NCBI RefSeq assembly: GCF_000003815.2
Contig: NC_049979.1
Coordinates: 34,503,738 to 34,567,737, forward strand
DNA from: Branchiostoma floridae
Taxonomy: Eukaryota > Chordata > Leptocardii > Amphioxiformes > Branchiostomatidae
Direction: 5' to 3'
DNA: 64,000 nt
Of this stretch, positions 26,182 to 58,796 are shown piece by piece. Position 1 is the stretch's first letter. Every line of letters begins with the position of its first letter. Both the position numbers and the translations under genes were made by a program. The notes beneath the pieces were generated by a model. That model was not told the DNA's origin and did no database searches. It saw only the letters and a program-made list of their open reading frames with translations.

Positions 26182-26270
26182 GCATGTGCTCGGATTGATC
26201 TATCTATGTGAGGCAATCTTGTGTCTAGAAATACAACTGATCAAGGGTTTTTGCATTGCAGACTTAGGCA

Positions 26271-27986
26271 ATGATGGCAGCAGCACAGAGGTCACAGGCG
26301 CCACTTGACTTCTGCCATGATGCGCACTCAACTGCCCTCTTGCAGGGTTTGCAGGAACTGCGATCGGAAAGCCTGCTTGTAGATGTCATCCTTTGTGTCT
26401 CGGGGAAAGAGATCCCGTGCCACAGAAATGTACTCTCAGCTTGCAGCGGATATTTTCGGGCGATGTTCTGCAATGGACACCGTGAGAGCAAGGAGCATAA
26501 GGTCACCATTCACGAGGCCAGCGCCAGTGCTTTGCAGCTGCTTGTCGACTACGCCTACACGTCAAAGGTAACCATAACAGAGGACAATGCTGTAGAACTG
26601 ATGGAAGGGGCCAGCTTCTTCCAGGTTCCACCAGTGAGGGATGCATGCACAAAGTTCCTAACAGACAGTCTATGTGACAATAACTGTATGAAGATGGTTA
26701 ACTTGGGCGGCATGCTAAACCCCCACCTAGAAGCAGAAGCATTGTCATATGCAATGAAAGAGTTTGCAGTAGCCTGCAAAACACCTGAGTTCCTTCGGTT
26801 GACAAAGGGCCAGCTCATCAAGCTCATCTCATCAGATGACCTGAATGCTCCAGAAGAGACAGTGTACACGGCAGTGCTGAAATGGATCAACCACGACACC
26901 AGGAAGAGGAAGAAGGAGATGAGAGAGCTGATGGAACTGGTCAGGTTCCCCTACATGGACAGGATGTACTTCATGGAAAATGTTGAGTCGGACAAGGTCA
27001 TGCGCAAGTGCTGTCCGGATGTTGTTACAGAAACATTAAGGAATTATGCGTTCCCTGGAGAAGTCCAATCACCTCGCACCCGTCCCCGACATGCCAGCGG
27101 TCTGAGGGAGGCAGTAGTGATCATTGGAGGAAATGACAAAGTAGTACATACAAATCCTTTCGACTTGGTTTACAACAATGCCATCACCATGACTTACTCC
27201 TCTACACCATCAAGTGAAAGTTGGATTTCTATGACCACAATGAGGAACAACGACGATGATCATGGATATGCTGTTGCTGTTTTGGGCACAAGTGACATTA
27301 TTGTGTCTGGTGGAATTGAGTGCCCAGACGTTTGGCTGTATCAGACAAGACTTGACTCCTGGTCTAAACTTCCCCCAATGCACACAGTACGGCCCTATTG
27401 CAAGCTGGCAGTGGTGCGAGGAAAAGTATATGCAATTGGTGGAAGAATCAACCACTCACCTCGATGTGTAACAGCAGATGTTGAAGTCTACGACCAAAGC
27501 CTGAACAAGTGGACTGAAGGTGTTCCACTACCACAGCCAAGATACTTACATGCAGTTGCAGTATTAGATGGTGGCATATACGTGATGGGTGGATATGATG
27601 CTGAGGGCTATACGACATCTACGGTATACCGCTTTACCCCAGGAGACTCTCAGTGGTATTCAGTAAGCAACATGCCTGAGGCAGCTTCATTTATCACTGC
27701 TTCAGTTCTCAATGGTAGCATCTATGTTGCTGGGCTTCACTCAAACGTGCTGTGTTACAGGCCTCAGGACGACTTGTGGACTGTTGTAGCCCACCATGAT
27801 ACTGGATGGAGATGTGGTATGACTGTCTTTGGTGGGAAGATCTACTTCTATGGAGGCCGTGACACCAATAACAAGGGAACAACAAAGATTTTCCAACTCA
27901 ATCAAGAAGACAAGTCACTTAAGCAGGTGGGGACCATGCCCAAGCGTCTGTTTGACCATGTATGTGTTACTATATTGAAGGGTTGA
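26271..27986 (+). CDS. BTB-BACK-Kelch protein, KLHL24-like, paralogue C
   Basis: A 571-residue single-exon CDS arranged like A and B. BTB has SGKEIPCHRNVLSACSGYF and MFCNGHRES, BACK has KLISSDDLNAPEETVYTAVL, and the Kelch repeats include IIGGND, IVSGGIE, VYAIGGR, IYVMGGYD and IYFYGGRD. It shares the N-terminal QAP residues with B but resembles A at several Kelch positions (for example DVWLYQTRLDSWS), so the branching order, or conversion between copies, needs a tree. The same 5' acceptor and first-exon block are present. Expected to be a Cul3-ligase substrate adaptor; substrate unknown. Confidence 0.92.
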   Translation: MMAAAQRSQAPLDFCHDAHSTALLQGLQELRSESLLVDVILCVSGKEIPCHRNVLSACSGYFRAMFCNGHRESKEHKVTIHEASASALQLLVDYAYTSKVTITEDNAVELMEGASFFQVPPVRDACTKFLTDSLCDNNCMKMVNLGGMLNPHLEAEALSYAMKEFAVACKTPEFLRLTKGQLIKLISSDDLNAPEETVYTAVLKWINHDTRKRKKEMRELMELVRFPYMDRMYFMENVESDKVMRKCCPDVVTETLRNYAFPGEVQSPRTRPRHASGLREAVVIIGGNDKVVHTNPFDLVYNNAITMTYSSTPSSESWISMTTMRNNDDDHGYAVAVLGTSDIIVSGGIECPDVWLYQTRLDSWSKLPPMHTVRPYCKLAVVRGKVYAIGGRINHSPRCVTADVEVYDQSLNKWTEGVPLPQPRYLHAVAVLDGGIYVMGGYDAEGYTTSTVYRFTPGDSQWYSVSNMPEAASFITASVLNGSIYVAGLHSNVLCYRPQDDLWTVVAHHDTGWRCGMTVFGGKIYFYGGRDTNNKGTTKIFQLNQEDKSLKQVGTMPKRLFDHVCVTILKG

Positions 27987-39505: not shown

Positions 39506-41564
39506 TCAGTCCTCTGGCCCAAATACCCCAGGCGCCTCTTTCAGAGCCACTCGGATCAGTTCTTCCCAGAACCAGCGCTTGATGTAGGTCGCGCGTTCCT
39601 TCTCATCTTGTACCGACTTGGTGAGGGTCTTCTGGATGCCTTGCAGCTTCTCCAAACTCAGTCCTTGTGTGTCGGGTAACTCGTAAGTTGTGCGATCGGG
39701 CACGGCAGCGATGATGTTCTTGATAACTGGGTACCGGAGAACATGCGGGGCGGTAGTGGCGAGTCTGCATCGAAGGGAGTCGGCATGAGCGAGAAGCTTT
39801 TCTGCATAGTCTCTCTCAAGCTTGAGCTCTGCCCACAGCTTGTTCACTAACGACTTGGCCTCTTCATACTGAGGATCTTCTGCGTCCTCGTGTTTGGGCG
39901 ATGGGGTTGTTGTTGTAAGAGACGCTCCTCCTCCTTGAGTAGACGTTGTCGTCTGACTGTCTGTATCCGCGCCGCTGTTGTCGGGTGCTTCCGTCTCTTC
40001 TCCACGGACAACTGGAGGATAGCGCTCTGGGACATCGCCTTCTCCGGCAGCAGGGCGTTTGTCTGCTGTATCTGGAGCTGTGGCTGGTAGGCCGGATGCC
40101 GAGCTTGTTGAAGACTCTGCTTTGACGTCTGCGGCGTCACCGGTAGCGGCTGGTGGTGAGCTGTCCTTGCCGCTGTTGTCCGATGGTGCGTCCGGCTCTT
40201 TTTCCTGAGAAACATTGATCTTGTCATTCTCCAGCTCTGGTTTCTCTGGCAGCTCCGTCTTGACTGTCTCCTCGGAAGTCTTGTCTGGGTATAAAAATGA
40301 GAAACCCACATTCTATAACGCTGTTTCGACCGACGTCTATTCATCAGTGTTCCATATAAACTAAAGGTATATATGCCCCACATTCATCTAGAGGTGGATT
40401 TGAAGGGACTTGTTTTCCCTTACCCCAAGAAGGTTCAATTTTGAAAACTTATATCCTTGTTTGAATGATGAATTCTACCGCCTCTTACCTTGACCCTTTG
40501 GTAGCTCACACTCTAGCGCGCTGACGTCCCTGTCTTCGTTGGCAGCAAACTCGTCAGCTGTGTCACAAGTTGAGGCTGTGTCTGAAGTTGAGGCTGTGTC
40601 TGAAGAGTCTAGTTTGACGTCTGCGATGTCGCCGGTGACGGAAGGTGGCTTGCTATCCTTAGCGTTGTTGTCTGAGGGTGTGGCCTCTGCTTCCTGAGAA
40701 ACTACCACCTCTTTGCCCTGGTGATTCTGCAGCTCCGACAGAGTCTCCTGCTTCCCCTGCACGGATGCCTCAACGGTCCCCTCGGGAGGCTTGGTCGAGA
40801 CTAAATAGAAAAATACAATACGTATATTGTGTGTTTTTCATCATTTCATTTTTCGACTTAAGATCTAAACAAGTGTCATTTCAACAGGGCTTTCCCACAA
40901 AATGCAGTTCCCTTTAGGTATGTCTTCACTACTTACTTCTTTGAAAGTTGCCATTGTCTTCCATATGTGTCGCTGCCCTGTGGGAAAATTAAGAGCTAGC
41001 TAATGTCTCCCCTATTAAGACAGCATGAAAGTACATACACTCTCACCCTGCATAGGAACAGAAACAGATCTTACCTTGGTTCTGTCTATGCTGACTTTTC
41101 ACCTCCATGCCGTCGAGAGTAACGGACACTTGTAAGAACACTTCCTCATTCCTCCGCCCGCTTTTGTTTGACCGGTCCATGATGTACCACCACTTCTGTG
41201 GTAAACCGTCCGCTGACTCTAGTGCGGCTGCAACATCGATGGACAGCTCACCAACTGTGGCGTCTTTGCAGCGCTTTGCCTTCCGAAGTTTCAGAACCAG
41301 TTGGTCTGTTGGCGACCATGGCACGAACTCCGTAGAATGTTCCCAGATCAATGCGTCTGACTTTTTCTTAGCGGTTTGTATCTTTACCTTGCCATGGCGC
41401 ATTGTCACTAGATACTTGCCCTGGCTCTTGCGACCGACTTTGCCCTCGTGGACAGTTACGTTGAGTTTTGTCTCGTCGCTCTGTCTTTTACCGCCAGGCC
41501 TGATCATTGAAAGCACGTGTGCCACTGAAAGGAACGCTGACGCCGCCTTGTCGAGAACCCCCAT
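39506..41564 (-). CDS. C2-like domain protein of unknown function, copy 1
   Basis: Exons on the minus strand: 41564-41075, 40972-40937 (36-nt cassette), 40800-40489 and 40284-39506. Phases agree, giving 538 residues. The N-terminal ~170 residues resemble a C2 domain: KLNVTVHEGKVG, QGKYLVTMRHG, IWEHSTEFVPW, LVLKLRKAK and TVGELSIDVAAAL. The usual Ca-binding Asp pairs are not evident. The middle (~175-420) is acidic, rich in Ser, Thr, Pro and Glu, and probably disordered. The last ~120 residues (KLWAELKLERDYAEKLLAH onwards) look helical and end in APGVFGPED. The start MGVLDKAASAFL was chosen because all three copies keep it, whereas copy 2 has a stop just upstream. I do not recognise the family; no signal peptide or membrane segment is seen. 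Confidence 0.8.
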
Positions 41565-41790
41565 ATTTCTATGGGAAACTTGGAGATTCAATTGACAAAA
41601 CGCGGAGCTCGAGAGATCCGTGCGTTTCCTCGGTCAACAGTGGCGTTATGTTTGGTTGCTGTGCTACAGCGTGGAGAAATGCAGTTCTAGAACACTCCGT
41701 GACAATCGCGAGCGCTCCATGGAACAAAGCATTGACAACCTTGACCCCAGTGACCCCGAAATGACGTAACCTAGGCAATGATGACGTTGG
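41565..41790 (-). promoter_or_regulatory. Shared 5' flank of the C2 gene copies
   Basis: The same sequence precedes copy 2 (52236-52410) and copy 3 (53402-53602): AACGCGGAGCTCGAGAGATC, TTATGTTTGGTTGCTGTGCT, then TGACCCCGAAATGACGTA. TGACGTA resembles a CRE/ATF half-palindrome. Probably promoter plus 5' UTR. Confidence 0.5.
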
Positions 41791-42143
41791 AATATTGCGC
41801 TGATCGTGATGTCATAGTGAGGAGTGACATTGACTTTGACTTTTCCAACATTCCTTCATACCACCCTGTACCAAACGTTAGCATTTGTCAAGGTATTTCA
41901 AAAACAGGTGTCCTTTTTATTTGCAGTATGTTTATATGCTTGTGTAATTGTAATGTGGTGAGAAATACTCTGTAAGTTGATGCTGTATTACTGTGATCGG
42001 AAATTACTCTCAGATTTTAGATCGGTGTTCTTTCATTTGGACGCACGTACGATAAAGTACAGATCATCGTAAGTCAAGAGCTCGAGCTAGGTTATGTTTC
42101 CGACAGAGCATACTACAGACTCCCGTTTATAGCATATAGCATT

Positions 42144-42656: not shown

Positions 42657-42894
42657 ATAGCATTAGACGTGCTGAGTCTCTTGATAGATGATATCCATTT
42701 TTTTTGGGGTCCAAATCACTGCTCCGTTTCGGCCCTTTGCAGAGTATGCTCTTATTTTGGAGGTTTTCAGTAATGTAGAAAGGCGAAATACAGGGAAAAT
42801 TTGAATATCGTCCATTATATATGTTAATACCTATACAAACAACGAGCTTATCGAAGGAACAATGCAGACAAGTGATGGAATGTTGTCAACTGTA

Positions 42895-43340
42895 ATGATG
42901 AACAACCTTCATTTTATTTTTTCACTTTGGAAGAAAACTATTCAATCTGAATATTGGTGTCTTAAGCCCAAGGGATGGAACATCTTTGACAGAAATACAA
43001 TGCAAAGACGGGATTGTATACAGTAAGCATGGTGTTTACATCTGTTTGCGTGTGGGTAAAGTATCTCCAAAACATTAACTGAATATTAAATAATTGAAAA
43101 GTAATATAAACAGCAAGATTCAATTCCGGAACAAGCAACTGGGACCATTACATAGCCAAATATGTTTGGCAAAACGAGCGGACCGTTTATAAGAAACAAA
43201 ATCATTTTGCATTTAAAGAGTATCAGGCGTCAAAGTGCCTTCTCAACATCAGATTAAAGTTGGGTCAGTTAGAGGTTCATAACGGACCTTCTTGGTGACA
43301 AAACATTGTGTTGATTGGTTGACTAACAATGCTGTTAGAT
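42895..43340 (-). repeat. Duplicated 3' flank of C2 copy 2
   Basis: Nearly the same as 52675-52950 (GCATGGTGTTTACATCTGTT, AACAAGCAACTGGGACCATT) and more distantly as 39060-39420. Marks the end of the duplicated unit downstream of each C2 copy. Confidence 0.6.
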
Positions 43341-45288
43341 AACACTCTTTTCAAAACCCAGTAATATGCTGAACGCATGCAGGATATGTATTTTGCAATT
43401 GTTGCATGAGATATCTGTCACTTCAGTCCTCTTGCCCAAATACTTGGGGCGCCTCTTTCAGAGCCACGCGGACCAGTTCTTCCCAGTACCAGAGCTTGAT
43501 GTAGGTCGCGCGTTCCTTCTCATCTTGTACCGACTTGGTGAGGGTCTTCTGGATGTCTTGCAGCTCCTCCAAACTTAGTCCTTGTGTGTCAGGTAACTCG
43601 TAAGATGTGCGATCGGGCACAGCAGCGATAATGTTCTTGATAACAGGGTAGCGGAGAACATGCGGGGCGGTATTGGCGAGTCTGCATCGAAGGGAGTTGG
43701 CATGAGCGAGAAGCTTTTCTGCATAGTCTCTCTCAAGCTTCAGCTCTGCCCACAGCTTGTTGACTAACGACTTGGCCTCTTCATACTGAGGATCTTCTGC
43801 GTCCTCGTGTTTGGGCGATGGGGTGGTTACTGTAAGAGGCGCTCCTCCTCCTTGAGTAGACGTTGTCGTCTTACTGTCTGTGTCTGTATCCGCGCCGCTG
43901 TTGTTGGGTGCTTCAGTCTGTTCTCCACGGGCAACTGAAGGATGGTGCTCTGGGACATCGCCTTCTCCGGCAGCAGGGCGTTTGTCTGCTGTATCTGGAG
44001 CTGTGGCTGGTAGGCCGGATGCCGAGCTTGTTGAAGACGCTGCTTTGACGTCTGCGGCGTCGCCGGCAGCGGCTGGTGGTGAGCGGTTGTCCGATGGTGC
44101 GTCCGGCTCTTTTTCTTGGGAAACATTGATCTTGTCATTCTCCAGCTCTGGTTTCTCTTGCAGCTCCGTCTTGACTGTCCCCTCGGAAGTCTTGTCTGGG
44201 TATAAAAAGGAGAAACCCACATTCTATAACGCTGTTTCGACCGACGTCTATTCATCAGTGTTCTATCTAAACTAAAGGTGTACATGCCCCACATTGATCT
44301 AGAGGTGGATTTGCAGGGACTTTTTTTCCCTTACCCCAAGAAGGTTCAATTTTGAAAACTTATATCCTTGTTTGAACGATGAATTCTACCGCCTCTTACC
44401 TTGACCCTTTGGTAGCTCACACTCTTGCGCGCTGACGTCTCTGTCTTCGTTGGCAGCAAACTTGTCCGCTGTGTCACAAGTTGAGGCTGTGTCTGAAGTT
44501 GAGGCTATGTCTGAAGAGTCTAGTTTGACGTCTGCGATGTCGCCGGCGACGGATGGTGGTTTGCTGTCCTTAGCGCTGTTGTCTTGGGGTGTGGCTTCTG
44601 TTTCCTCAGAAACTTTGGCTGCAGCCTCTTTGCCCTGAGTCAGAGTCTCAGGCGTCCCATGCACATATGCCTCAACGGTCCCCTCGGGAGGTTTGGCCAA
44701 GACTAAACAGAACGATACCATACGTATAAGAGTCACATCAACACGACTTTCCCACAAAAAGTAGTTCCCTTTAGATATGTCTTCCACTTTTTACTTCTTT
44801 GAAAATGTCCATTGAGAAGTCATTTCCATATGTATCCCTGCCCTGTGGGAGAAATAAAAGCTTGCTGATTTCTACCCTATCAAGACAGGTGTATATGACC
44901 ATAAAAGTACATACACTATCTTACCCTGCATAGGAACAGAAATAGGCACATCTTACCTTGGTCCTGTGTAGGCTGACTTTTCACCACCGTGCCGTCGAGA
45001 GTAACGGACACTTGTAAGAACACTTCCTCATTCCTCCGCCCGCCTTTGTTGGGTCGGTCCATGATGTACCACCACTTCTGTGGTAAACCGTCCGCTGACT
45101 CTAGTGCGGCTGCAACATCGATGGACAGCTCACCAACTGTGGTGTCTTTGCAGCGCTTCGCCTTCCGAAGTTTTAGAACCAGTAGGTCTGTTGGCGACCA
45201 TGGCACAAACTCCGTAGAATGCTCCCAGATCAGTGTATCTGACTTTTTCTTAGCGGTTTGCATCTTTACCTTGCCATGGCGCATTGTT

Positions 45289-45340
45289 ACAATGACAATG
45301 ACAATGACAATGACAATGATGACAATGACAATGATGTTTA
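45289..45340 (-). repeat. 3' microsatellite tail of the retrotransposon
   Basis: On the + strand ACAATG is repeated about five times, then ATG, then twice more. On the element strand this is (CATTGT)n. Short tandem tails instead of poly(A) are characteristic of CR1/L2-group elements. Confidence 0.75.
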
Positions 45341-45430
45341 TTGCATGTTCATGCCCCAATGGGGCTAAATGCATTAAGTTTGATATAAAGTTAATGACAA
45401 CAAATAAACAATGATGTATCCTAATAATAA

Positions 45431-48400
45431 CTATTTTCTACAAGCTTCGTCCCTCCTCTTAAAACAAGAGTAAACGAACTTACACAGTTCTTCCAATATG
45501 TCATAGTTAGTTGATGACATCAGATATTTAAACATGTCTGCCTTTGTTGTGTTTGTATATTTCTCTTTAACACGTTTAACATTAACAAGGCTATTACGCA
45601 TATCATTGTACAGAGAACACTCTAGTACAAAGTGCATTTCATTTTCTATACATCTGACATTCTTATTACAAAACATGCATATTCTATCGTCAGGAGGAGT
45701 TCGGGTGTATCTGCCAGCTTCAATTTGCAGTGGGTGATCGCTGATCCTTAATTTAGTCATGGCTCGGCGATAACTAAAATTTGTTATCTCTAGGTACTTT
45801 TCTCTTTCATAAGTAAGCTTGAATTTTCTGTAGGTTCTTAACTTATTACCTTGGTTTTCCTTCATGCCAGGAGAATTCATTTCGGAGTAAAAATTTTGAA
45901 CAAAGTTGTCTTTCAGTCTTTGGTTTACTTCGGACTGAGCGAAAGATGTGTTGCGATCACTGTTAATCAAAAGATAGGCAAAACCAGACTCCTCCAGGAT
46001 TTTACTAACATTGGAAAACCAGCATGGTATGTTGCGACTGTGTAAGTCCTGCTGTACAAGAAAAGCTTCAAATTGTAGACTATTTCTTGGCACTTCTTTA
46101 ACTAATCTTTTGTAGTATGAATACAATCTAGTATATACTTCGATCCACAGAGGATACCTGCCTAGTTCTGCCCTTGTTGCAAGATTACTTGAGTTTTTTC
46201 TTACGCCTAATAACGACTTGCAAAACTTCAGATGAACTTGTTCAATGGGTGACTTATCATTTAATCCGATTTTGCCCCATACCTCTGCACCATAAGTCAA
46301 TATTGGGACAACGCAGGCATCAAATAATTTACAATATACTGAAATTGAAGGATTGGTTTCTCCTAGTGTTGTTTTAATACTGAACAGAGCTCTTAGCGCC
46401 TTCTTTTGTAATGTTTTTAATGCTGTTGTGAAGTTGCAACCTGTTGTAAGCACCACTCCTAAATAGCAATATGAAGAAACTATCTCTATGTCTTCGTTGA
46501 GTATATGAAATTTCAGATTTGAGAACATATGACCCTTTTTGTTAAATACGATTATTTTTGTCTTATTTATGTTAACTGATAATTTCCATTTGTTGCAATA
46601 GAGACCTAGTTTATCAATTGCATTTTGAAGACCATTTTGGCTAGTTGATAGTAGGACAAGGTCGTCGGCATAAAATAAACTTGATACTTCAGATGTATTT
46701 AGCAAGGGCGCATCAAAATCTCCTGTATTCAGTTCGTCTGCTAAGTCACTGATATATAGGTTAAATAGTGAGGGACTTAGAACACAACCTTGCCGCACTC
46801 CTATTTTGACAGGGAAATTTTCACTTAAACCTATATTTGTTTTCACACTCGCTGCGGATTGACTATATAAACTTTTTAGCATATCAAAAAATCTACCGGA
46901 AATGCCTTTTGATATGAGTTTGAATAATAGGCCCTCGTGCCAAATTGAATCAAATGCCTTGGATAGATCCACAAAGCAAGCAAATAGTTGATTTCTTGAC
47001 TGTGTATATTTGGAAATCAACGTTTTCAGAACAAATATGTTATCTGACGTTCTGTAATTCTTCCGGAATCCTGCTTGATTAGGTTTAAGAATTTTGTTTT
47101 CCTCGAGAAAAGAGGAGAGCCTTTTGTTTAGTACAGAGGTAAACAGTTTCCCGAGACAGCTAGAAATGGAAATCCCGCGGTAGTTGTTAGTGTCGTCTTT
47201 TCTCCCTGATTTGAATATGGGCACTATGTAGCTTTTTGACCAGGTTTGGGGGAATTTTCCACTAAAAAAGATGCGATTGAATAATGCAACAAGAGGCTTT
47301 AAAAGTAAGCTGTGTCCCGCTTTCAGCATTTCGTTAATTATCATGTCTTCGCCGCTCGCCTTTTTGTTTTTGAGAGCCGTTATTGCACTACTTATTTCAG
47401 CCTCCGTGATTTGGCAATCAAGAGGCCCTTGCTCTGTGTTGAGTTCCTCCAGTGCCTTTAGATTGTCTTTAATTTTCATTTCAAATTCAGTGTCAAAATT
47501 TTGCCTCTCAAGCCTACGTTTTTCATGTAATGCTTTGAAGTGAGTTACCCATGAATCAGGCGGGATTTCTTCTAAAGCTTTTGGAGTAGAATTGGCGTTT
47601 TTAAATTGTTTAAGTAGATTCCAAAAGGCGGTTGGATTATTTTCCTGAAGATTTTGGAGCTGCATTAAACAGTCAGTTTCATAGTCTTTTTTGCGCTTTC
47701 GAATTAGTTTGTTGTATTCCTTTTTCTTCCTAAAATAGCTACCTCGAATAAAAGGGTTCTTTGGGTTTCGTTGCAATAAATATTGCAGATTACGGAGCTC
47801 TTTCCGGGCCTCGAAGCAATTTTTGTTGAACCACTTTTTATTTGTTCGTAATTTTTTTTGTTTACTGTTATGTTTGATTTGTAGTGACATTTTCCCCGCT
47901 ATTTCTAAGATTTCCTGAAATTTGTGAACTTCTTTGTCGATGTTTGCATTTAAGATTGAGTTTAGATGCGTTGACAAATTAAAATTTTCAAGCTTGTGCG
48001 ATAATGCTTGGCTGCGTAAAGCATTTATAAACTTTTCGCTGGAGTCCGGTCCCCAGACAAATCTGTCTGGCAAAGGTCGCATATTTATTTTGGGTGTTTC
48101 GTTTTGAGATTCTTGTATAAGTGTCTTAATGTTTAGCGAGATCATACAATGATCAGAAAATTCGGTCAATGGATGTACTCTAAATATATTGATATTGTGG
48201 AAGAGGGTACTGCTAGCTATGGCATAATCAACGGTGCTACAGCTGTTAGGCTGGTAGCAGGTGAATCGGCCGCTGAGATCTCCCAGGACTCGCCCATTTA
48301 GAATGTTGAGGTTGGATTGGTAACATAAATCAGTCAAATCTTTGCCAAATGTGTTTGGCGGGTTTTTATCAGAATAATTTCTTGGGATGTTGAGAATTGG

Positions 48401-48964
48401 AATATGCTCAACGTCAGAATCTATTGGAGTTTCGTCCGCGAAGTCTTTCAAGGAACCTAATCGACTATTAAAGTCTCCTCCGAGAATCACAAAACCTCTG
48501 GACGTAAAACGTGCCACGTCCTGTTCTAGTACATCAAAGATAGATTCTTCAGATCTTTTGTGGATCGAAGAGTTTACAGGACTGATATATACATTACCTA
48601 TGAATACGTCTCTGGATAGGCCAAACAATTCCTTGGCTACACGGATCCAGAGAATATCTTTGCTTTCTGAAGTGCTGCTCTCTCGTCTTATAAATTTTGC
48701 TAGTTTGTTTTTAAAATAAAAGATAATTCCACCTGAGTTCCGTCTGGCTTTACTTTGTTTGTTCCTTAGAGATGAAAAGTGCTGATAATGTTGTAGATCA
48801 ACTTCTGACGTATCATTACTCCATGTTTCAAGGAGGGAGAAGAAATCTAATTTTTCTAAACTGTTTCTAAAATCGTTGACTTCAAGTTTTTTTCCTAAAC
48901 CATGAACATTCCAAAAACCTATGGATATAGAGTGAGGAGACATTTGTAACCTTGACATTGTCAT
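45431..48964 (-). CDS. Retrotransposon ORF2: APE endonuclease and reverse transcriptase
   Basis: 1177 residues. Residues ~10-280 form an apurinic-type endonuclease (GFWNVHGLG, LLETWS, LGGDFNSR, TVDYAIAS, EFSDHCMIS). Reverse transcriptase follows at ~500-800: IVPIFKSG, NNYRGISISS, FVDLSKAFDSIWH, VRQGCVLSPSLFN and the catalytic FYADDLVLLS. The C-terminal third has YGAEVWGK and a Cys/His knuckle near the end (CMFCNK...HFVLEC). It nicks target DNA and copies the element RNA there (target-primed reverse transcription). All catalytic motifs are present and there is no stop or shift, so it may be active. The start overlaps nothing; ORF1 lies 172 nt upstream. Confidence 0.95.
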   Translation of the reverse strand: MTMSRLQMSPHSISIGFWNVHGLGKKLEVNDFRNSLEKLDFFSLLETWSNDTSEVDLQHYQHFSSLRNKQSKARRNSGGIIFYFKNKLAKFIRRESSTSESKDILWIRVAKELFGLSRDVFIGNVYISPVNSSIHKRSEESIFDVLEQDVARFTSRGFVILGGDFNSRLGSLKDFADETPIDSDVEHIPILNIPRNYSDKNPPNTFGKDLTDLCYQSNLNILNGRVLGDLSGRFTCYQPNSCSTVDYAIASSTLFHNINIFRVHPLTEFSDHCMISLNIKTLIQESQNETPKINMRPLPDRFVWGPDSSEKFINALRSQALSHKLENFNLSTHLNSILNANIDKEVHKFQEILEIAGKMSLQIKHNSKQKKLRTNKKWFNKNCFEARKELRNLQYLLQRNPKNPFIRGSYFRKKKEYNKLIRKRKKDYETDCLMQLQNLQENNPTAFWNLLKQFKNANSTPKALEEIPPDSWVTHFKALHEKRRLERQNFDTEFEMKIKDNLKALEELNTEQGPLDCQITEAEISSAITALKNKKASGEDMIINEMLKAGHSLLLKPLVALFNRIFFSGKFPQTWSKSYIVPIFKSGRKDDTNNYRGISISSCLGKLFTSVLNKRLSSFLEENKILKPNQAGFRKNYRTSDNIFVLKTLISKYTQSRNQLFACFVDLSKAFDSIWHEGLLFKLISKGISGRFFDMLKSLYSQSAASVKTNIGLSENFPVKIGVRQGCVLSPSLFNLYISDLADELNTGDFDAPLLNTSEVSSLFYADDLVLLSTSQNGLQNAIDKLGLYCNKWKLSVNINKTKIIVFNKKGHMFSNLKFHILNEDIEIVSSYCYLGVVLTTGCNFTTALKTLQKKALRALFSIKTTLGETNPSISVYCKLFDACVVPILTYGAEVWGKIGLNDKSPIEQVHLKFCKSLLGVRKNSSNLATRAELGRYPLWIEVYTRLYSYYKRLVKEVPRNSLQFEAFLVQQDLHSRNIPCWFSNVSKILEESGFAYLLINSDRNTSFAQSEVNQRLKDNFVQNFYSEMNSPGMKENQGNKLRTYRKFKLTYEREKYLEITNFSYRRAMTKLRISDHPLQIEAGRYTRTPPDDRICMFCNKNVRCIENEMHFVLECSLYNDMRNSLVNVKRVKEKYTNTTKADMFKYLMSSTNYDILEELCKFVYSCFKRRDEACRK

Positions 48965-49136
48965 GGCTTAATAAGAGTATCGACAAAACTATCAGAGTGC
49001 TGACTTATTCCCTACCTTTACTAAAACTTTTACTTCATCACTGAAGAGCTTACTTAAACAACTACGTTTGCAATCTACTATAACTTGTTAACAAGTACTA
49101 TACGATGTCTTATATAAGTAGATACTAAACCTTGAG

Positions 49137-51788
49137 TTAGTATTCATCAAAGTCATAGTCCCTGTACCACGGATAGTCACGAGAGCGCTCAGGCTGGAAC
49201 CGGTTCCGTTGTCCATTCAGGTTTGACGGAAACCAGTCCATGTACAGATCGTCGTAGCCACGGTAGGATTGGAATGGGGGGAAAGGGTCACGTCGCCATC
49301 CGCTGGATTCGTGTGCTGGACCCCATCGTTCCATAGCCCTGTCATGTTGTAGCCTTGGTAGATGGTCCCTCCACATGCTCTGGTTCGCGCCTCTGAGGTC
49401 CGTTGGAGCTTGTCTAAGCATTGCTGGACGTACGCTCTGCCAGTTCCTTTCTGCTCCATTGTTTCCCAATGCTTCGAAAGCTTGCCCGCCAATCCAGGGT
49501 TCCCTATTTTGTCGTAAGGGCACTGCTTGCTCTGGACGTCCGTTCAGCCAGGGTTCTCTGTTATTTTGTGGGGGCGGTATTGGAGCATTATAGTCGTTCC
49601 AGGGTTCCTTGAATCTTTTCCCAGCAGGATTTGGGTCCTGGTAACCATTCTGAGTCGCCTTCCTTCTTTGTGAGGGAGAGATCTGATGGGACTCAGGTCG
49701 TAGCGAGGACAGGTGGGAAGTGTTTCCTCTCTGTTGTGGGGCGTTACTTCTCCTTCCTCTGTTGTATGTACCCAGACCAACTGTTGGATGTATAGCCTCT
49801 TTTAAGTTAGCAGCTAGAACTTTTACACCACCGCGGTTAAGGTGATAGCCATCATCCTTGAATAGCACTCGTTTGATCGAGCCATTTTCCTCCATATTGT
49901 CGTTGTCCGCAACACTTATGTAGCCGCATTCTTGGCCGAGGATGTGAATGAAGGCGTTAACTTGCTTTGCGATTTCCATCAGGTGGCGGTCATTTCTTGG
50001 CGGTATAGAGGACAAGACTATGGCTGCGTTTGGGAATTTGTCATGAGTTGTCGCAACAAGTCGTCTCATGTTCTCGGTCACCCCGCTTGCAGCCCGTTCT
50101 TGCTTTACATCATTGGTACCCACATGGTACACGATACATTTAGGGTTGGAGAAAGGGGTGGTTTCTATGATGTCTATAGCTTCAGGAATGGTCATTCCCG
50201 GTTGCTTGTGGACTTGCTTGTCTGGGTATAATATACTTGGCATAATACTTCGTGTGTTTGAATCACCGATAACCACAATTTCTGCCTGTAGCTTAATCTC
50301 ATCAATTGTGCTGGATTGTCGTTTGTTGTTACCTTGGATTAGATCATCGGAGATCTGTTCTTCTGGAACTGTTGTATTATCCGACAGCACATCAAACTTG
50401 TTGCTAGTGTTGATGTTGGGCACAACGTTAACTGTATTGTCAGGATCTCTTGGTAAGAAGGATTCTTTTAGGAAGTCGTCCGTCTGACTTGTACGATCCA
50501 CGCTCCTATCACTTTTCGGTTCCAATAGCGTCATCTTATATCGCAGTTTTTTGTTCTCTGTTTCCAGTGAAGTAATGCGTCTTTTCATCACGTCAATGTC
50601 GCATGCCTTTATCACTTTCTCGGCAGGGGTATCATTTGTTTTAGACAATAGAGTTTCCATGTTGGAAATGCGCGACGACAAGGTGTCAATCTGTGAGATG
50701 CGCTCATACAATGCGTCGAACTTCTCATTTTCTTGAACAATTCTGTTGGTCAAAACAGCCTCAAGTTTCTCAACAGTACAATGGAGCATAGAAAGTCTGT
50801 CATTGTTGATCTTTGGAATAGTCTCTGTTTCGAAACGAACATTGAGTTCTTTTCGAATCAACTCGTTGCTGTTGTTGTTGTTGTTGTTTCCATCGCTAAC
50901 GCTTGCTGTACCGGCAATGCTCTTTGGAATGGTTTCAGTTGTGTATCGAACGTTGTATTCGCATTGTGAAGGAGAGATTGAATTGGTGCTGTCAACAACG
51001 CCGTCAAATGAACAACTATTGCAAACAAACACACCCTCATCACCTTTTATGAACTCATGAAGAAGGAATTCATGCACTCCAGTACAAGCATGGTGGAACC
51101 AGTTTTGACACACGTTACACTGGATCACACCGACGTCTGCAGGACCGGCGCGCTCACATTCCTTGCACACAACAATCTCACAATCCATGTTCGAAATTGT
51201 ACTTGTTGAAGTCACCAATTTTTTCAATTCTTCAAAGGTGTACATTACCCAGAGATAGCAGGCTGAGCTTTGTACCAGAATCTTGGAAGTATGATAGATG
51301 TGAAGGGTTACAGTACCGTACACTTCGTTTGTGACTGGATCCTGGAAAGGTGCTGAAAGTTGGTGACCATTCCTTCCTTTGTTCTCAGCAGACATGTTGT
51401 AATGCTTTTCAACAATCTCTATCCACTTTTTCTCCGAACCTGCCGGGATATGCACTGTCACACTGTTTTCATTGTACTGGATGAAGTAACTATCACTTGG
51501 TTTGGCCTTTTTATCTCGTTTCGCTGACTCTGCGATCTCGTTTGTCTGATCGTATTTCTGTCGACGCTCGCCGTCTGACAAAACATAGAATGCCTTGCTT
51601 ACCTCGCCGAACTTTTGACGGGCCGTAGCCAGGAGCCGCTTGTCTTTCGTAGTTTTGACGATGTTGTCGTATTTCTTCACTTCTTCTTTGTACACAGAGA
51701 TGATTGTGCTTTCCGTTGAGTCGCTTGCTACTCCAAGTAAACTGTATAACTTGCCGGGTGATCGCTTCTTCTGATCGTCGTTCGTCAT
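49137..51788 (-). CDS. Retrotransposon ORF1: J-like domain, PHD finger, coiled coil, SGNH esterase
   Basis: 883 residues. Residues ~10-85 read like a DnaJ domain ([16 protein letters not shown], then [22 protein letters not shown]), but the HPD tripeptide that stimulates Hsp70 is absent; YDN stands at that place. Residues ~195-260 are a C4HC3 PHD finger ([26 protein letters not shown]). About 320-430 is a predicted coiled coil ([15 protein letters not shown]). About 500-680 is an SGNH/GDSL hydrolase with GDSN, GTND and DGYHLN supplying Ser, Asn and Asp/His. The C-terminal 200 residues are Gln/Arg/Pro-rich, a likely RNA-binding tail. PHD and esterase are known in CR1 ORF1 proteins; the J-like start is unusual. 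Likely packages element RNA. Confidence 0.9.
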
Positions 51789-52235
51789 TTTGTCCTCTTG
51801 GGTCCGACGCTTGAATCTCTGTTCTCAGAACGTTACAGTTGCACGGTTGAATTCCGTACAAAACTTGGCTTGTATAACTCGACAAGTCGGCTTGAATAAC
51901 TCGACAAACTTTACGATATATATGAAAATAAATATCTAAGATGGTTCTATACGATACCACCAGAAGATTAACACACTTTGAGTGATCCTATTACAGTAAA
52001 AGTAGGCAAAAGTAGGGAAATTCGTCACACTCAAGCGGAGCGGTGAAACGAAGATGTTCGCCTCGCCGCCATCGAATAGAAGATACTTGCCCTGACTCTG
52101 GCGCCCGACTTTGCCCTCATGGACAGTTACGTTGAGTTTTGTCTCGCCGCTCTGTCTTTTACCGCCAGGCCTGAGCAATGAAAGCACGTGTACCACTGAA
52201 AGGAACGCTGACGCCGCCTTGTCGAGAACCCCCAT

Positions 52236-52893
52236 CTTTCAATGGGAAACTTGGATATTCACTTTGACAAAACGCGGAGCTCGAGAGATCCGTGCGTATC
52301 CTCGGTCAACAGTGGCGTTATGTTTGGTTGCTGTGCTACAGCGTGGATAAATGCAGTTCTAGAACACTCCGTGATAATCGCGAGTGACCCCGAAATGACG
52401 TAACTTAGGCAATGACGACGCTCGAATATTGCGCTGATCGTTATGTCATAGTGAGGATTGACATTGACTTTGACTTTTCCATCATTCCTTCAAACCACCC
52501 TCCAAAGTTCCAAAGTATGCTCTTATTGGTGAAGTTTGTAATGTAGTAATGTAGAATGGCGAAAGAAAGGGAAAATTCGAACATCGTCCCTTATTTGTTG
52601 ATACGTACACATACAACGAGCTTCTCAAAGAAACAAGGCAGACAAGTGATGAAATGTAATCAACTGTAACGATGAACAATCTTCATTTTATTTTCTCACT
52701 TTGGAAGAAAATTATTGAATCTGAACATTGGTGCCTTAAGCCCAAGGAATGGAACATCTTTGACAGAAATACAATGCAAAGACGGGATTTTATACAATAA
52801 GCATGGTGTTTACATCTGTTTGCGTGTGGGTAAAGTATCTCCAAAACATTAACTGAATATTAAATAATTGAAACGTAATATAAACAGCAAGAT
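52236..52893. other. 5' flank of C2 copy 2 and 3' flank of copy 3, no further gene
   Basis: 52236-52480 matches the upstream sequence of copy 1, including GAAATGACGTAAC. From about 52500 to 52950 the sequence matches the flank after copy 2 (42760-43160). Nothing else coding is seen. Confidence 0.55.
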
Positions 52894-52954
52894 TCAATTC
52901 CGGAACAAGCAACTGGGACCATTACATAGCCAAATATGCTTGGCAAAACGAGTG

Positions 52955-53401
52955 AGCACATCTTGTACCGACTTGGTGAGGGTCTTCTGGATGCCTTGCA
53001 GCTCCTCCAAACTTAGTCCTTGTGTGTCAGGTAACTCGAAAGATGTGCGATCGGGCACGGCAGCGATAATGTTCTTGATAACAGGGTACCGGAGAACATG
53101 CGGGGCGGTAGTGGCGAGTCTGGATCGAAGGGAGTTGGCATGAGCGAGAAGCTTTTCCGCATAGTCTCTCTCAAGACGGAGCTCTGCCCACAGCTTGTCG
53201 ACTGACGACATGGCCTCTTGGTACTGAGGATCTTCTGCGTCCTTGTGTTTGGGCGATGGGGTGGTTGTTGTAAGAGACGCTCTCCCTCCTTGAGTAGACG
53301 TTGTCGTCTGACTGTCTGTATCCTCGCCGCTGTTGTCGGGTCAATGAAAGCACGTGTACCACTGAAAGGAACGCTGACGCCGCCTTGTCGAGAACCCCCA
53401 T
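52955..53401 (-). pseudogene. C2-like gene copy 3, chimeric deleted pseudogene
   Basis: 53401 to about 53343 encodes the start MGVLDKAASAFLSVVHVLSL. It then joins directly to the middle of the last exon (DTDSQTTTSTQGG through KLWAELRLERDYAEKLL to TLTKSVQD). The C2 domain, the cassette exon and the acidic exon are lost, and the join is out of frame. A second deletion at about 52955-52965 removes the C-terminus and fuses to the 3' flank. The 5' flank is retained, so transcription is possible. Confidence 0.8.
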
Positions 53402-53601
53402 ATTGTAATGGGAAACTTGGAAATTCAATTGACAAAACGCGGAGCTCGAGAGATCCGTGCGTATCCTCTGTCAACAGTGGCATTATGTTTGGTTGCTGTG
53501 CTACGGCGTGGATAGATGCAGTTCTAGAACACTCCGTGACAATCGTGAGCGGTCCGTGGAACATGGGATTGATACTCTTTACCCCAGTGACCCCGAAATG
53601 A

Positions 53602-55380
53602 CGTATGTGGATGTATATGCATGTGTGTGAGTGTGTATGTGCGCGCGTTCACTTGTGCGTGGTTGGATGTTGTTCATCACCAGAGAGAGGCACGGCGGTC
53701 GGTTGCTAGGGCATTCTTTCCCGTTGCTATGCGCGTTCGACAGAGAAACTTTGGGCATACAATAGAATACGGCTACCCGTAAAATATTTGAAAATAAACA
53801 AAATGTTCTGACAAGGAAAATGTTTTCGAAATAAGATTGAATTAGCAATTCTACATACATTGAATGATGTCGTTTGAATTTAGATAGCTGTTTTGTTTCG
53901 ATGTAACTAAAAAAGACGATCATTTTCTGTTTTCAGGAAGGCCTTTAATTTGACCAAACTCTTGATAAGATAGGCCGCATGTATCATCGAAAATTCTCGT
54001 TTTTTTATGTTTTTCGTCATCTATGAGGAAAATAAAACTTTCTGTTTTTGGGATTTTTTGATTTTAAGCAAAGTTACAGTCGAAAATATGCGTAAAAATG
54101 GCATTTTTCGCACTTAATTACCAATAATTCAAAATCGACGGCATTTTTTAAAAATCCCAAAAACAGAAATCTCGGAAAAATCATGGCGGTCATTTTGAGC
54201 CGTCAACGAGTTAATTTGGACTCTTCTTGGTCGCGATCTTAAACGAAGTTTGCACGCATGTCATGCCGCACGGATAGCGGGAGGGTGTAATTGATACCGG
54301 TGTAAACAACACTTACAATATACAAGGTCACCAACACAAACGTCAATAGCTTCGTTAAATGTCACAGGTCCCAAACAAAGTGATAGCATGGACGTACTGT
54401 CCAGAAAAATGTTAATATTAGTGAAAAACTATCTTTTTTGGCTGATTCAAGGTAGTTTGGGAAAAAAGGCCAGAGAGCAGTGTTTACCGGCAACGACCGC
54501 AGATGACCCCAAATAGAACACGGGTTCGGTTCGAATTACGTCAGATGGAATATCGTGGAACAAGGTTCCAATTCGGCTAGACATGGGAGGTTTTGAGTCC
54601 GTATTTGACCACCGTGAGGTGTGTCTACCTGTGTGGATGGTGTTCAGTACCAAGGACAGGTGTGCTTACCTGTGTGTGGATGGTGTTCAGCACCAGGGAC
54701 AGGTATGGTTAACTGTGTATGGATGTGTTCAGCACCAGGACTGGTGGTTAATTGGAGATTGGTTAATTTACTCAAGGTTCATTCCATTGTGATACAACGT
54801 TTTAGTTGTAGATAAGTCGATGAGGGGTGATACGATACGCCAAATAGCAGTTGCTCAAGTAACTTAAACTAAACCTGCTGCCTTAACCTGTTCGTGCCAA
54901 AAGGCTAATACAGAAGGAAGAATGTTAAAACTGTCGTGCGGGACCTGTCCTTGGTGCTGAACAACCACTGTATAGTGTTGAGAAATGACATAGTATTTTG
55001 TTTTCAAATGAGCACGATTTAGAAGTTTATTTATGTTTTGTTCTGTTCTATTCACATAATAATTGTTCTGATGAGTTTCTGTAATTAATGATTTTGAGTT
55101 GTTAGTGTTTAACTTGTGTTGACTTAATCACTTAAGTTATTACCCTTATGTTTGATTAATCAAGTGTTATGTTATATGGTTATTGTTACGTTTATGTTGA
55201 TTGATTTGGAAATTATTTTTTGACTGTAGGGACTACCCTAAAAGAGCAAACAAACAAACAAACACATGCACCCGCAAAAGGCACGGCATAACCTTCCAAA
55301 TCTAGTGAAATAAAAATAAAAAAAACACAAACATACTAGCTGTAACAGTCGTTTTATTTCAGCACTTCATCGACCCTTTC
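53602..55380. other. Intergenic, no gene seen
   Basis: Contains a TG-rich simple repeat at about 53603-53650, AT-rich sequence and a short tandem repeat (separate entry). No open frame has recognisable features. Confidence 0.4.
54620..54745 (+). repeat. ~45-bp tandem repeat, nearly three copies
   Basis: The unit is CTACCTGTGTGGATGGTGTT followed by CAGTACCAAGGACAGGTGTG, repeated with small changes. A reverse-oriented piece (GGGACCTGTCCTTGGTGCTG) lies at about 54940-54960. Confidence 0.6.
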
Positions 55381-55383
55381 CAC

Positions 55384-55680
55384 TTGAATAATCATAGGCT
55401 ATTACATCAGATTAGTCTGAATATCCCGAATGATTCTTGTACAATAATAACCCCTAATACGTCAATCGCAAAATGCATAAACATAATACTTAGGAGTTAT
55501 TGGTCTGATATATCTAATGCAGTGTACGTAGAGTCGCCACCAACAGCCGGTGGTGCAAAGCTTGTTACGTACCGAAAACCATCCTTAATTAGGGAAAAGT
55601 TCTTAGCTGACCTACGGCTCGTCGCGGATGCTTACGGATCTGTGGACCGAATATACAACCAGCAGGTAAGTGACAAATAG
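55384..55680 (+). other. Unassigned open frame ending near a good splice donor
   Basis: A 98-residue frame whose last part (SLIREKFLADLRLVADAYGS) is followed by CAGCAG|GTAAGT at 55665. It is out of frame with the LRR gene and only 24 bases lie before the next acceptor-like TCTCTAG, too short for an intron between them. Could be an exon of another transcript or chance. Confidence 0.2.
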
Positions 55681-55748
55681 TTTCTCTAGTGAAAGATTTA
55701 GATCCAAACAAAATGTATGTGAGAGGTGGTACGAAGGAGAGCGCGGCC

Positions 55749-58700
55749 ATGTTGTTCTTGCTTCTCTTGGCAGCTGCCTGTGGGGATTCAAATGGTCCGA
55801 GCGTACCTCAGTGTAAGACGGCTGGGTGGCGAGAGTGTGTGCCTCTCACACCTAGACCAGCGACTTTGATGCATGGCAAATCTGCATGTGTCATGTGTAA
55901 GGTCCTGAATGTCCGTGTTGCCTCTGGAGGTCCTTTCTCTTTTCTTGCTAGGGCCAATAGTGTGGCAATAAGAGGGTATCCATTCCATGTCTTGTCGGCA
56001 AAGAAGCTCGCACCGCTCCAGCATTCTGTGCTTCACACCTTGGCTCTGATAGATGCAAAGATTACTGATGTGGAGAACAACACATTCGTTGGGTTTCCCT
56101 CTCTCGATAAACTGTCCCTAGATTCTAACAGGTTGACAAATGCCAAGCAGGTCTGGTTCACTGGCTTGGAGAATCTTTTGACGCTGATTTTGTCCAACAA
56201 CAACATCACTCAGATAGAGCCAGGGAGCTTCGTGCACCTGAGAAGCCTGAGTATGTTGGATCTAGAGAACAACCTGTTACAGGTTGTAGACCCTGCCTGG
56301 CTCTTTGGACCGACATTTGTCCAGATCCTGAACCTGGGATATAATGAAATCGGTACCATTTCACCGGGGTCATTCCAACCCGTACATCTGACCTGGCTAG
56401 ACCTGATGTGTAATGATCTGTCAAGTTTGGATGGAGATGTTTTGGGAGGACAGTCTTCGCTGTCAAGGCTCCATATCAGCAGTGGCATGCTGTCGTCTGC
56501 CCATGATGCAAAGCCACATGAAACGAGGTGGAGCCTACATCGGTTTTTCAGTTTCGGAAGAGGGTCAGCATCGATGATTGTTAAGGTGCCCAAGTTCCTC
56601 TTCTGTGCTAGGTACACTGCTTATGAACTCTCGTTGGGGTGGGTGTTTGATTCATCGGATAATGTGCCTGGTACCTCCAAATCAGGCGTCAACCCAGGCA
56701 TGTCATGCGGCGCTTTGGATCATTCTCTGAGCACGATCTCTATCCAAGCCCCTGCAGTTGTCCTGGCTACTGTCGGCTCCCTGGCAGACAAACTGGTCCC
56801 CAATACGCTTGAGCAGTGCAGACAGGTTTGGGAATACGATGGGGGCATTGCAGTGCAAGTGGGCCCTTTTGGAAGCTCGATGTTCCGACTGGTTTCCTTG
56901 GCCACAGGGAGTACAGCTGCTGAAGACGTTGCCTTGTCCTTTGTCCGTAAACAAGACACGAGCACACTCACCACCCCAGAGTTTGACAGCAGCCAACAGC
57001 ACACCACCCACACAAACCCCACCCATGACAAGACAAAGAACATCACCTGCATTCTTCTCACTAAAAATAAACACACTAAGTTGTTCTTCACTGTTTCCCC
57101 GGTCCAACCTCAGACCCACACAACAGAAACCACTTACAGAAGGCATATTGGTAATTCCAGTAGCCTGACACCCTACTCTGAAACTACAGAGAACGACTAC
57201 ACATCTTCCAAACCGAGGGACCTCTCCACGCTGCAGGTGAGTACAACACATGCGGCAGATCTAGAGGTGCTTGCCGTACCAGGTCATGTTGTCATCTCAG
57301 TTGCCGTCTTGGCAGTAGTCGGTCTGGTAGTGTCGGCACTTGTAGTGTTGGTATGGAAGATCTGCTCAACATGGTTCAACGCTGAGGATGAGAGGGACAG
57401 CGACGATGCACACATCTGGACAATCCCACCTGGCGTTGCCTTCCCCGGCTTACTGAGGTCAGCTTCCCTCCCTGCACGTCCAATCAAGGTTGTGTCGGAT
57501 GACGCAGTCTCGTGTAGGTCATTGCCTGCTGTACTGGATTCCATCGAGCATACTTACAGCGAGATCCCAAATGGAATAGCCTCTGCTCAGAGGCCCCTGC
57601 CTGGCCTCCCACACGTATACTCTGAGATCCCAGATGCCCCCATCTCGGGTGTGGTAAGGTCAGCTTCCCTTCCTGTATGCACTAGTGGGGTTGGCACAGA
57701 TGATGCGGCTTCCTGTAGGTCATTGCCGGCTGTTCTCCAGTCCATCGAGTCCAGTTACAGTCAGATCCCAGATAACATTGCCGCTGCACAGCGCCCCCTG
57801 CCTGCTCTCCCGCGCACATACAGGGAGGTCCCAGACCACGAAGCCGCTGCACAGCCTGCCCGCCAACATACCTACAGCGAGATACCAGATGATGACAGCG
57901 GACCCATGCCTTTCTATGCTGATGCTGCAAAGTTTTCGCTTCATGTCGTCAGAAATCGGAGACAGAATCGAAGGGTCTTCCGAGAAAACGGCGTCACGTA
58001 TGGATCGGCTGACCAGTCCAAAGCCCAGTGTAACTTCTTTTACAGAAACTCCCCGGAGATCGGGGGCATAAGGGCCCGTGGACAGCTTAGAACAGCTTTG
58101 GTATCCCAGCCTGCTGACCAAGGTGTAAGTACGCCCGTCAACGCCACAGATGCAATCCTGTCCAGAGTTCAAGACGGGACGGGACCTCATAACTCCTTCC
58201 TCACGCTACCTAACACCTACTGGCCATGGGAGATTCCAGGGGAGGGAGCCCCTAACACACCACGGCGTGCGTCTCTCCCCCTTGTCACACCACCTAACAC
58301 CTATTGGCCATGGGAGATGCCAGGGGAGGGAGCCCTTAACACACCACAGCGTGGACCCCTCCAGAATGTCACACCGCCTAACACCTACTGGCCATGGGAG
58401 ATGCCAGTCGGGGGAGCCCGTAACACATCACGGCGTTCGTCCCTCCCCCCTGTCACACTGCCTAATACCTACTGGCCATGGGAGATTCCAGGGAAGGGGG
58501 CCCCCAACACACGACGGCGTGCGTCCCTTACCCAAGTCACACTGCCCAACACCTACTGGCCTTGGGGCATACCGGGGGAGGGAACCTGTAATACACCACG
58601 GCGTGCGCCCCTCCCCCTCACGTTGCCTAACACCTACTGGCCATGGGAGATTCCAGGGGAGGAAACACGTAACACATCGCGGCGTTCGTCCCTCCCCCTT

Positions 58701-58796
58701 GTCACACCACCTAACACCTACTGGCCTTGGGAGATTCCAGAGAAGGTAACCCATAACACACCACATCCAGGGAAGGGAGCCCCTAACACACCATAG
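55749..58796 (+). CDS. LRR single-pass receptor with Tyr/SH3-ligand tail and NTYWPW repeats
   Basis: 1015 residues in one exon from the chosen start. That start gives the signal peptide MLFLLLLAAACGDSNG; the frame is open further up, with ATGs at 55689 and 55713. The extracellular part has about six leucine-rich repeats (LHTLALIDAKITDV, LLTLILSNNNITQI, LSMLDLENNLLQVV, VQILNLGYNEIGTI) and a Thr-rich stalk. The membrane span VISVAVLAVVGLVVSALVVL encodes around 57290-57350. The cytoplasmic tail has five Tyr motifs (HTYSEIP, HVYSEIP, SSYSQIP, RTYREVP, HTYSEIP) and two RPLPxLP class I SH3 ligands, then seven repeats built on PNTYWPWEIPGEG. No kinase or TIR domain. Inferred to be a signalling receptor using SH2/SH3 adaptors; the ligand is unknown. 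The tail type is one I associate with amphioxus LRR proteins. Confidence 0.88.
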   Translation: MLFLLLLAAACGDSNGPSVPQCKTAGWRECVPLTPRPATLMHGKSACVMCKVLNVRVASGGPFSFLARANSVAIRGYPFHVLSAKKLAPLQHSVLHTLALIDAKITDVENNTFVGFPSLDKLSLDSNRLTNAKQVWFTGLENLLTLILSNNNITQIEPGSFVHLRSLSMLDLENNLLQVVDPAWLFGPTFVQILNLGYNEIGTISPGSFQPVHLTWLDLMCNDLSSLDGDVLGGQSSLSRLHISSGMLSSAHDAKPHETRWSLHRFFSFGRGSASMIVKVPKFLFCARYTAYELSLGWVFDSSDNVPGTSKSGVNPGMSCGALDHSLSTISIQAPAVVLATVGSLADKLVPNTLEQCRQVWEYDGGIAVQVGPFGSSMFRLVSLATGSTAAEDVALSFVRKQDTSTLTTPEFDSSQQHTTHTNPTHDKTKNITCILLTKNKHTKLFFTVSPVQPQTHTTETTYRRHIGNSSSLTPYSETTENDYTSSKPRDLSTLQVSTTHAADLEVLAVPGHVVISVAVLAVVGLVVSALVVLVWKICSTWFNAEDERDSDDAHIWTIPPGVAFPGLLRSASLPARPIKVVSDDAVSCRSLPAVLDSIEHTYSEIPNGIASAQRPLPGLPHVYSEIPDAPISGVVRSASLPVCTSGVGTDDAASCRSLPAVLQSIESSYSQIPDNIAAAQRPLPALPRTYREVPDHEAAAQPARQHTYSEIPDDDSGPMPFYADAAKFSLHVVRNRRQNRRVFRENGVTYGSADQSKAQCNFFYRNSPEIGGIRARGQLRTALVSQPADQGVSTPVNATDAILSRVQDGTGPHNSFLTLPNTYWPWEIPGEGAPNTPRRASLPLVTPPNTYWPWEMPGEGALNTPQRGPLQNVTPPNTYWPWEMPVGGARNTSRRSSLPPVTLPNTYWPWEIPGKGAPNTRRRASLTQVTLPNTYWPWGIPGEGTCNTPRRAPLPLTLPNTYWPWEIPGEETRNTSRRSSLPLVTPPNTYWPWEIPEKVTHNTPHPGKGAPNTP
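58201..58770 (+). repeat. Seven 84-nt coding tandem repeats in the LRR receptor tail
   Basis: Each unit encodes 28 residues (the fifth has 27): LPNTYWPWEIPGEG, then xNTPRRASLPLVT. NTYWPW is invariant in all seven; the Glu after it is Gly in unit 5. NTPRRAS/NTSRRSS provides a repeated basophilic Ser site. The last unit is degenerate (NTPHPGKGAPNTP then stop). Confidence 0.9.

Follow-up and report, generated by a model that had tools for sequence, protein, structure and literature searches.

A J-like domain without HPD at the front of the ORF1 protein of an amphioxus non-LTR retrotransposon

The Element and Its Open Reading Frames

The stretch of DNA considered here (hereafter the window) comprises 64,000 nucleotides of Branchiostoma floridae contig NC_049979.1, positions 34,503,738 to 34,567,737, and carries a non-long terminal repeat (non-LTR) retrotransposon on its minus strand. 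The first open reading frame of this element (ORF1) encodes a protein of 883 residues that begins with a domain resembling the J domain of DnaJ proteins and lacks the HPD (His-Pro-Asp) motif. An earlier note on this DNA had placed ORF1 at 49137..51788, and the coordinates, strand and frame proved exact. An in-frame stop lies just upstream, since the open frame starts at 51824. From the N-terminus, the protein consists of a J-like domain, an alpha/beta region, a PHD motif, coiled-coil-like segments, an SGNH esterase and an arginine-rich tail. The features of the element, in window positions, are as follows.

45290..52081, minus strand: whole non-LTR retrotransposon, about 6792 bp, with limits taken from a paralogous empty site
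51789..52081, minus strand: 5' untranslated region (UTR), from the left junction to the first ATG
49137..51788, minus strand: ORF1, 883 amino acids (aa), ATG to stop
51549..51749, minus strand: J-like domain, residues 14-80 (PF00226, J domains of the Protein Data Bank (PDB), shuffle and window controls, structural model)
51660..51668, minus strand: D41-N42-I43 in the place of HPD (alignments with J domains)
51180..51491, minus strand: unassigned alpha/beta region, residues 100-203
51012..51167, minus strand: PHD finger of C4HC3 type, residues 208-259 (complete zinc-ligand pattern)
50520..50726, minus strand: coiled-coil-like segments, residues ~355-423 (by a crude heptad score only)
49788..50282, minus strand: SGNH esterase, residues 503-667, with S510, N559, D646 and H649 (PF13472)
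49140..49772, minus strand: arginine-rich C-terminal tail, residues 673-883 (28 arginines in 211 residues, net charge +7)
45431..48964, minus strand: ORF2, 1177 aa, apurinic/apyrimidinic endonuclease (APE)-type endonuclease and reverse transcriptase (Pfam)
45289..45336, minus strand: 3' microsatellite tail, (CATTGT)n

The limits of the element come from a paralog of the surrounding host sequence. The left host flank is 86.5% identical to this paralog over 458 bases, ending at 52081 (41410 in the paralog), and the right host flank 92.6% identical over 391 bases, starting at 45290 (41408 in the paralog). Because both flanks match one continuous sequence, the paralog near 41408-41410 represents the empty site. 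The junctions are uncertain by 1-3 bp, and no target-site duplication was seen at either of them. The limits so defined (45290-52081) enclose the coding sequence of the J-like part, which therefore lies within the mobile unit; a host exon read into the element is ruled out. A 5' UTR of 293 bases precedes ORF1, and both ORFs are open. A blastn search of the window (E 1e-3) found no second copy of the element. An overlapping ORF of 149 aa in another frame (51511-51960, minus strand) was also considered; its sole listed Pfam family is Herpes_gp2 (E 0.022, below cut-off), and it is taken as fortuitous because no Pfam family exceeds its cut-off.

ORF2 matches the Pfam families RVT_1 (E 1.1e-36) and Exo_endo_phos (E 9.3e-11), and no RNase H family is listed for it at E up to 1. 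This combination of an APE-type endonuclease with a reverse transcriptase and no RNase H is that of the Jockey superfamily (CR1/L2/Jockey) of non-LTR retrotransposons, in which a short-repeat 3' tail and a defined insertion, both present here, are also found. The CR1-group label given to the element earlier fits the ORF2 domains and the microsatellite tail and is plausible. On balance, the element appears to be a full-length, structurally intact long interspersed nuclear element (LINE) of the CR1/L2 (Jockey-superfamily) kind, a judgement made jointly with the account of ORF1 given below and sharing its strength. Separately, the 3' UTR ahead of the tail (45337-45433) contains a potential hairpin, GCCCC-AUU-GGGGC; it was rejected as a structured signal, with a stability z of -0.33 and 71 of 200 shuffles equally or more stable.

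A J-Like Domain at the N-Terminus of ORF1

DnaJ-like helices had been read at the front of ORF1 in the earlier note, and profile searches bear this out. The DnaJ family (PF00226, cut-off 27.8 bits) matches residues 14-80 of the whole protein with 35.8 bits (E 8.7e-9), spanning profile positions 2-63 of 63, and scores 41 bits (E 2.1e-10) when residues 1-100 are searched alone. A control profile made from three PDB J domains gave 38.7 bits on ORF1, and among the 481 six-frame stretches of 50 aa or more in the window no other exceeded 4.0 bits; on residues 1-100 it gave 44.0 bits, as against at most 12.4 bits on 2000 shuffles. In view of the Pfam score and of both the six-frame and the shuffle controls the DnaJ match is not due to chance, and chance helices are excluded as its explanation.

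Comparison of residues 1-104 with PDB chains (phmmer) returned 50 different sequences when E values up to 10 were admitted, mostly J, Hsp40 or DnaJ proteins; the weak non-J matches were polyamine-modulated factor 1 (twice) and a cytochrome P450. Top-ranked were DNAJA3 (E 1.4e-5), a type II Hsp40, SIS1 and DNAJB9, with E values ranging from 1.4e-5 to 2.2e-5. The full-length DnaJ models of NCBIfam matched over the J domain only (best TIGR02349, E 2e-8, 34 bits vs a cut-off of 377.2), and a phage family without assigned function matches residues 14-88 (E 2.5e-8). Alignments show that core residues of the J domain are kept, namely L18-G19-V20, Y33, F60, L70-S71-D72, R76 and Y79-D80.

The earlier note had called for a fold prediction of residues 1-100, and the outcome agrees with its reading. 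A single-sequence AlphaFold2 model (mean pLDDT 72.7) contains four helices at residues 11-18, 26-46, 50-70 and 74-92, the predicted arrangement corresponding to the four-helix J fold. J domains are ranked first when this model is searched with Foldseek, but no E value is at or below 0.001 and the confidence of the model is moderate.

Absence of the HPD Motif

As had been claimed, the J-like part lacks HPD, and the motif occurs nowhere in the 883-residue protein. The loop between helices II and III reads K-Y-D-N-I-V and is longer than in the aligned J domains, with D41-N42-I43 and the residues that follow replacing H-P-D. Counting back from the HPD position, which we take to be residues 33-35 of Escherichia coli DnaJ (EcDnaJ), the helix-II residues R22, K26 and R27 correspond to I30, K34 and E35 in ORF1, so that only the lysine is kept. 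In EcDnaJ these three residues are contacts with Hsp70 (PMC10349383; this and the other articles cited by PMC number are drawn on in part, through selected sections). The domain thus departs from the Hsp70 co-chaperone J proteins (classes A-C), which carry HPD, and has the characters of the type IV J-like proteins, in which HPD is altered and helix II is less positive (PMC10349383). Some J-like proteins are thought to work without Hsp70 (PMC11349236). The sequence-based prediction that the domain would not activate Hsp70 is strengthened by the change at two of the three helix-II contact positions, and the Hsp70-activating step has probably been lost.

Could the domain still engage Hsp70 in a non-canonical manner, bringing the chaperone to ribonucleoprotein particles (RNPs) of the ORF1 protein (ORF1p) during their assembly or uncoating? 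K34, the equivalent of the conserved K/R26 contact, is retained, and for an exported Plasmodium type IV protein a potential interaction with HSPA1A is reported (PMC10349383). However, HPD, which is treated as essential for Hsp70 interaction (PMC11349236), is absent, and helix-II positions 22 and 27 are occupied by I and E. Such an engagement is accordingly regarded as improbable.

The Remainder of the ORF1 Protein

Between the J-like domain and the PHD motif, residues 93-208 have no match in Pfam and no sequence match in the PDB; a model of this region (pLDDT 57, low confidence) has the order beta-beta-alpha-beta-beta-beta-alpha and no clear fold. The C4HC3 PHD finger proposed in the earlier note stands as far as its zinc-ligand pattern is concerned, which is complete, but the PHD family (PF00628) scores 17.7 bits, below the cut-off of 24 (E 0.0037).

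The SGNH esterase of the original reading is confirmed, with PF13472 matching at E 8.8e-9 and the catalytic residues conserved. The best PDB match of this part is 4c1b, the ORF1p of the ZfL2-1 LINE (E 6.7e-5), and S510, N559, D646 and H649 sit in the motifs of the ZfL2-1 esterase residues S143, N195, D279 and H282 (PMC3905857). A LINE-related SGNH esterase with its catalytic residues is one mark of a type IV ORF1p, and ORF1 possesses it. As a separate observation, the esterase part (49749-50291, minus strand) also matches the Pfam family OSK (cut-off 27 bits), with 29.4 bits for residues 500-680 alone and 25.8 bits, below cut-off, in the whole protein. No Pfam family matches residues 681-883.

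Comparison With Known ORF1 and J-Like Proteins

Among known LINE proteins the nearest are the type IV (esterase) ORF1p of CR1/L2 lineages, such as zebrafish ZfL2-1 (PDB 4c1a/4c1b). In these a coiled coil, to which the putative coiled-coil segments of the amphioxus protein would correspond, is followed by an SGNH esterase; the catalytic S, N, D and H are shared, as is the position of ORF1 upstream of an APE-reverse transcriptase ORF2. The amphioxus protein differs in having a J-like domain, an alpha/beta region and a PHD motif in front and a long arginine-rich tail behind. PHD fingers are found in ORF1 types IC, IIB, IIC, IIIA and IIIB of L2 and CR1 lineages (PMC4120745). In those types, unlike here, the finger is joined to RRM, CCHC, Transposase-22 or to nothing, with no esterase and no J domain in Table 1 of that article.

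For the 448 Jockey-superfamily elements examined by Metcalfe and Casane (2014; PMC4120745), Table 1 records PHD, RRM, CCHC, coiled coil, Transposase 22, zinc finger, leucine zipper and esterase. The earlier note had described PHD and esterase domains as established in CR1 ORF1 proteins; each is indeed known in CR1/L2 ORF1s, but no subgroup in Table 1 combines the two. According to the same source, esterase-type ORF1 turned up in just two groups, both exclusively vertebrate. Its Table 1 also contains no J domain, in keeping with the note's remark that such a module was unfamiliar in this family. A literature search covering titles and the beginnings of abstracts, with Repbase Reports outside its scope, identified no LINE whose ORF1 is reported to carry a J domain, nor is such a protein described in the sections used of PMC4120745, PMC3905857, PMC4021074, PMC5408684, PMC2588589, PMC11349236 and PMC10349383. 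The word "DnaJ" is absent from the text of PMC3905857 and PMC5408684, and its single occurrence in PMC4120745 is part of a reference string.

These surveys bear on whether the domain might be an old, widespread and undescribed N-terminal feature of a LINE clade, derived from a J domain in every member of that clade and overlooked because it has diverged. A diverged, HPD-less sequence would fit long residence in the element, and CR1/L2 ORF1s are modular, with parts exchanged among lineages (PMC4120745). We nevertheless hold this to be very improbable.

On the chaperone side, the best PDB sequence matches of the J-like part are the class A and B J domains of DNAJA3, SIS1 and DNAJB9, which differ from it in possessing HPD. 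Class A and B J domains stimulate Hsp70. Closer in character are the type IV J-like proteins, among them human DNAJB13, Pam16, plant J-like proteins and Plasmodium RESA, which share a J fold with altered HPD (PMC10349383; PMC11349236). Helix II is also less positive in the Plasmodium members (PMC10349383), and several type IV proteins have been proposed to act independently of Hsp70 (PMC10349383; PMC11349236). They are, however, encoded by cellular or parasite genes, and no retrotransposon-encoded example appears in the sections used of these two articles.

Searches of viral contigs found no relative of ORF1, ORF2 or residues 1-208, and phage records gave no match. Prokaryote genome contigs gave one cross-match, over residues 15-83, to an archaeal metagenome-assembled genome; by its translation the matching part is a J domain with HPD. 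The silence of these collections says little on other LINE copies, because they are not of animal genomes.

Origin and Possible Role of the J-Like Domain

Where did the J-like domain come from? Its codon usage was compared with that of the rest of the element. The GC content at third codon positions (GC3) of the J segment is 0.55, a value reached by one of the 69 overlapping windows taken from the rest of ORF1, and its fit to ORF2 codon use is -0.091, below all 69 other ORF1 windows (minimum -0.081); these windows overlap and hence are not independent. The difference agrees weakly with the J segment having arisen separately. Codon use was rejected as evidence of foreign ancestry, the difference being small and the two alternative forward frames of this segment matching the codons of ORF2 more closely than its actual reading frame does.

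A private capture, in which a single copy or very small lineage gained a host J-domain coding sequence that is functionless in the element, would agree with the one copy seen and, weakly, with the small codon-fit and GC3 offset as a trace of later arrival. It fits less well with a fusion that is in frame and free of stops, a first ATG that precedes the J part, two open ORFs and a J part inside the inserted unit. Moreover, the loss of HPD while the core is kept suggests adaptation rather than a fresh copy. We therefore consider a private capture unlikely.

The explanation we favor, and hold on balance to be probable when all of its parts are taken together, is that an intact LINE of the CR1/L2 kind encodes a type-IV-like ORF1p (coiled coil and SGNH esterase) to which a J-like domain, an alpha/beta region and a PHD motif have been added in front. 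The sequence itself establishes which domains are present, how they are ordered, that they lie in the mobile unit and that HPD is missing; the functional steps of this account are ones we infer. The J-like domain would derive from cellular J-domain proteins. ORF1p may dimerize or oligomerize through its coiled coil and bind element RNA through the arginine-rich tail, while the PHD motif could serve in chromatin or partner contacts. The esterase may seat ORF1p on acidic membranes, as others have shown for ZfL2-1. By analogy with type IV J-like proteins, the J-like helices would offer a surface on which a protein of the host or of the element could dock, without stimulating the ATPase of Hsp70. 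ORF1 is probably a new variant carrying a J-like docking module that does not activate Hsp70. The broader proposal, that an animal LINE family took up a cellular J domain in its ORF1p, lost HPD and kept the fold as a docking module for RNP assembly, is put forward more tentatively, as one that falls somewhat short of probable.

Surrounding Sequence

The host sequence at the insertion site is duplicated (41024-41866 vs 44900-45289 / 52082-52500), and the element interrupts one of the copies. In the intact paralog, an open frame of 196 aa (41043-41633, minus strand) spans the insertion site and matches no Pfam family at E 1e-3. A host repeat of ~0.8-1.2 kb flanks the element on both sides (42737-43909 and 52508-53341, blocks 80-94% identical), with related open frames at 39506-40312, 43423-44223 and 52894-53340. 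Beside the 5' flank of the element lies a second local duplication (52176-52402 and 53342-53605), with blocks 94-100% identical and ~1.16-1.2 kb apart.

Elsewhere in the window, similar long frames occur at 15250-16947 (minus strand), 20832-22541 (plus strand) and 26268-27986 (plus strand); the first is BTB-BACK-Kelch by Pfam, and the other two are its apparent paralogs, judged by eye. The C-terminal part of a leucine-rich-repeat frame of 1040 aa (55674-58796, plus strand) contains several repeats of the motif PNTYWPWE-(I/M)-P. Near-identical open frames at 3844-4227 and 5643-6101 (plus strand), ~1.8 kb apart, suggest a recent local duplication or repeat.

Implications

The roles of the added domains of CR1/L2 ORF1 proteins are poorly understood, and a J-like module at the front of a LINE with open ORFs offers a handle on the contacts of its RNPs with host proteins. 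If the broader proposal above is true, a type IV J-like protein would here be encoded by a retrotransposon, and its J-PHD-coiled coil-esterase ORF1 would stand outside the five described types. A LINE would also have put a chaperone-type domain to use. Should the loss of HPD prove to be conserved among copies of the element, that would be evidence that a mobile element can benefit from the J fold by itself, independently of Hsp70.
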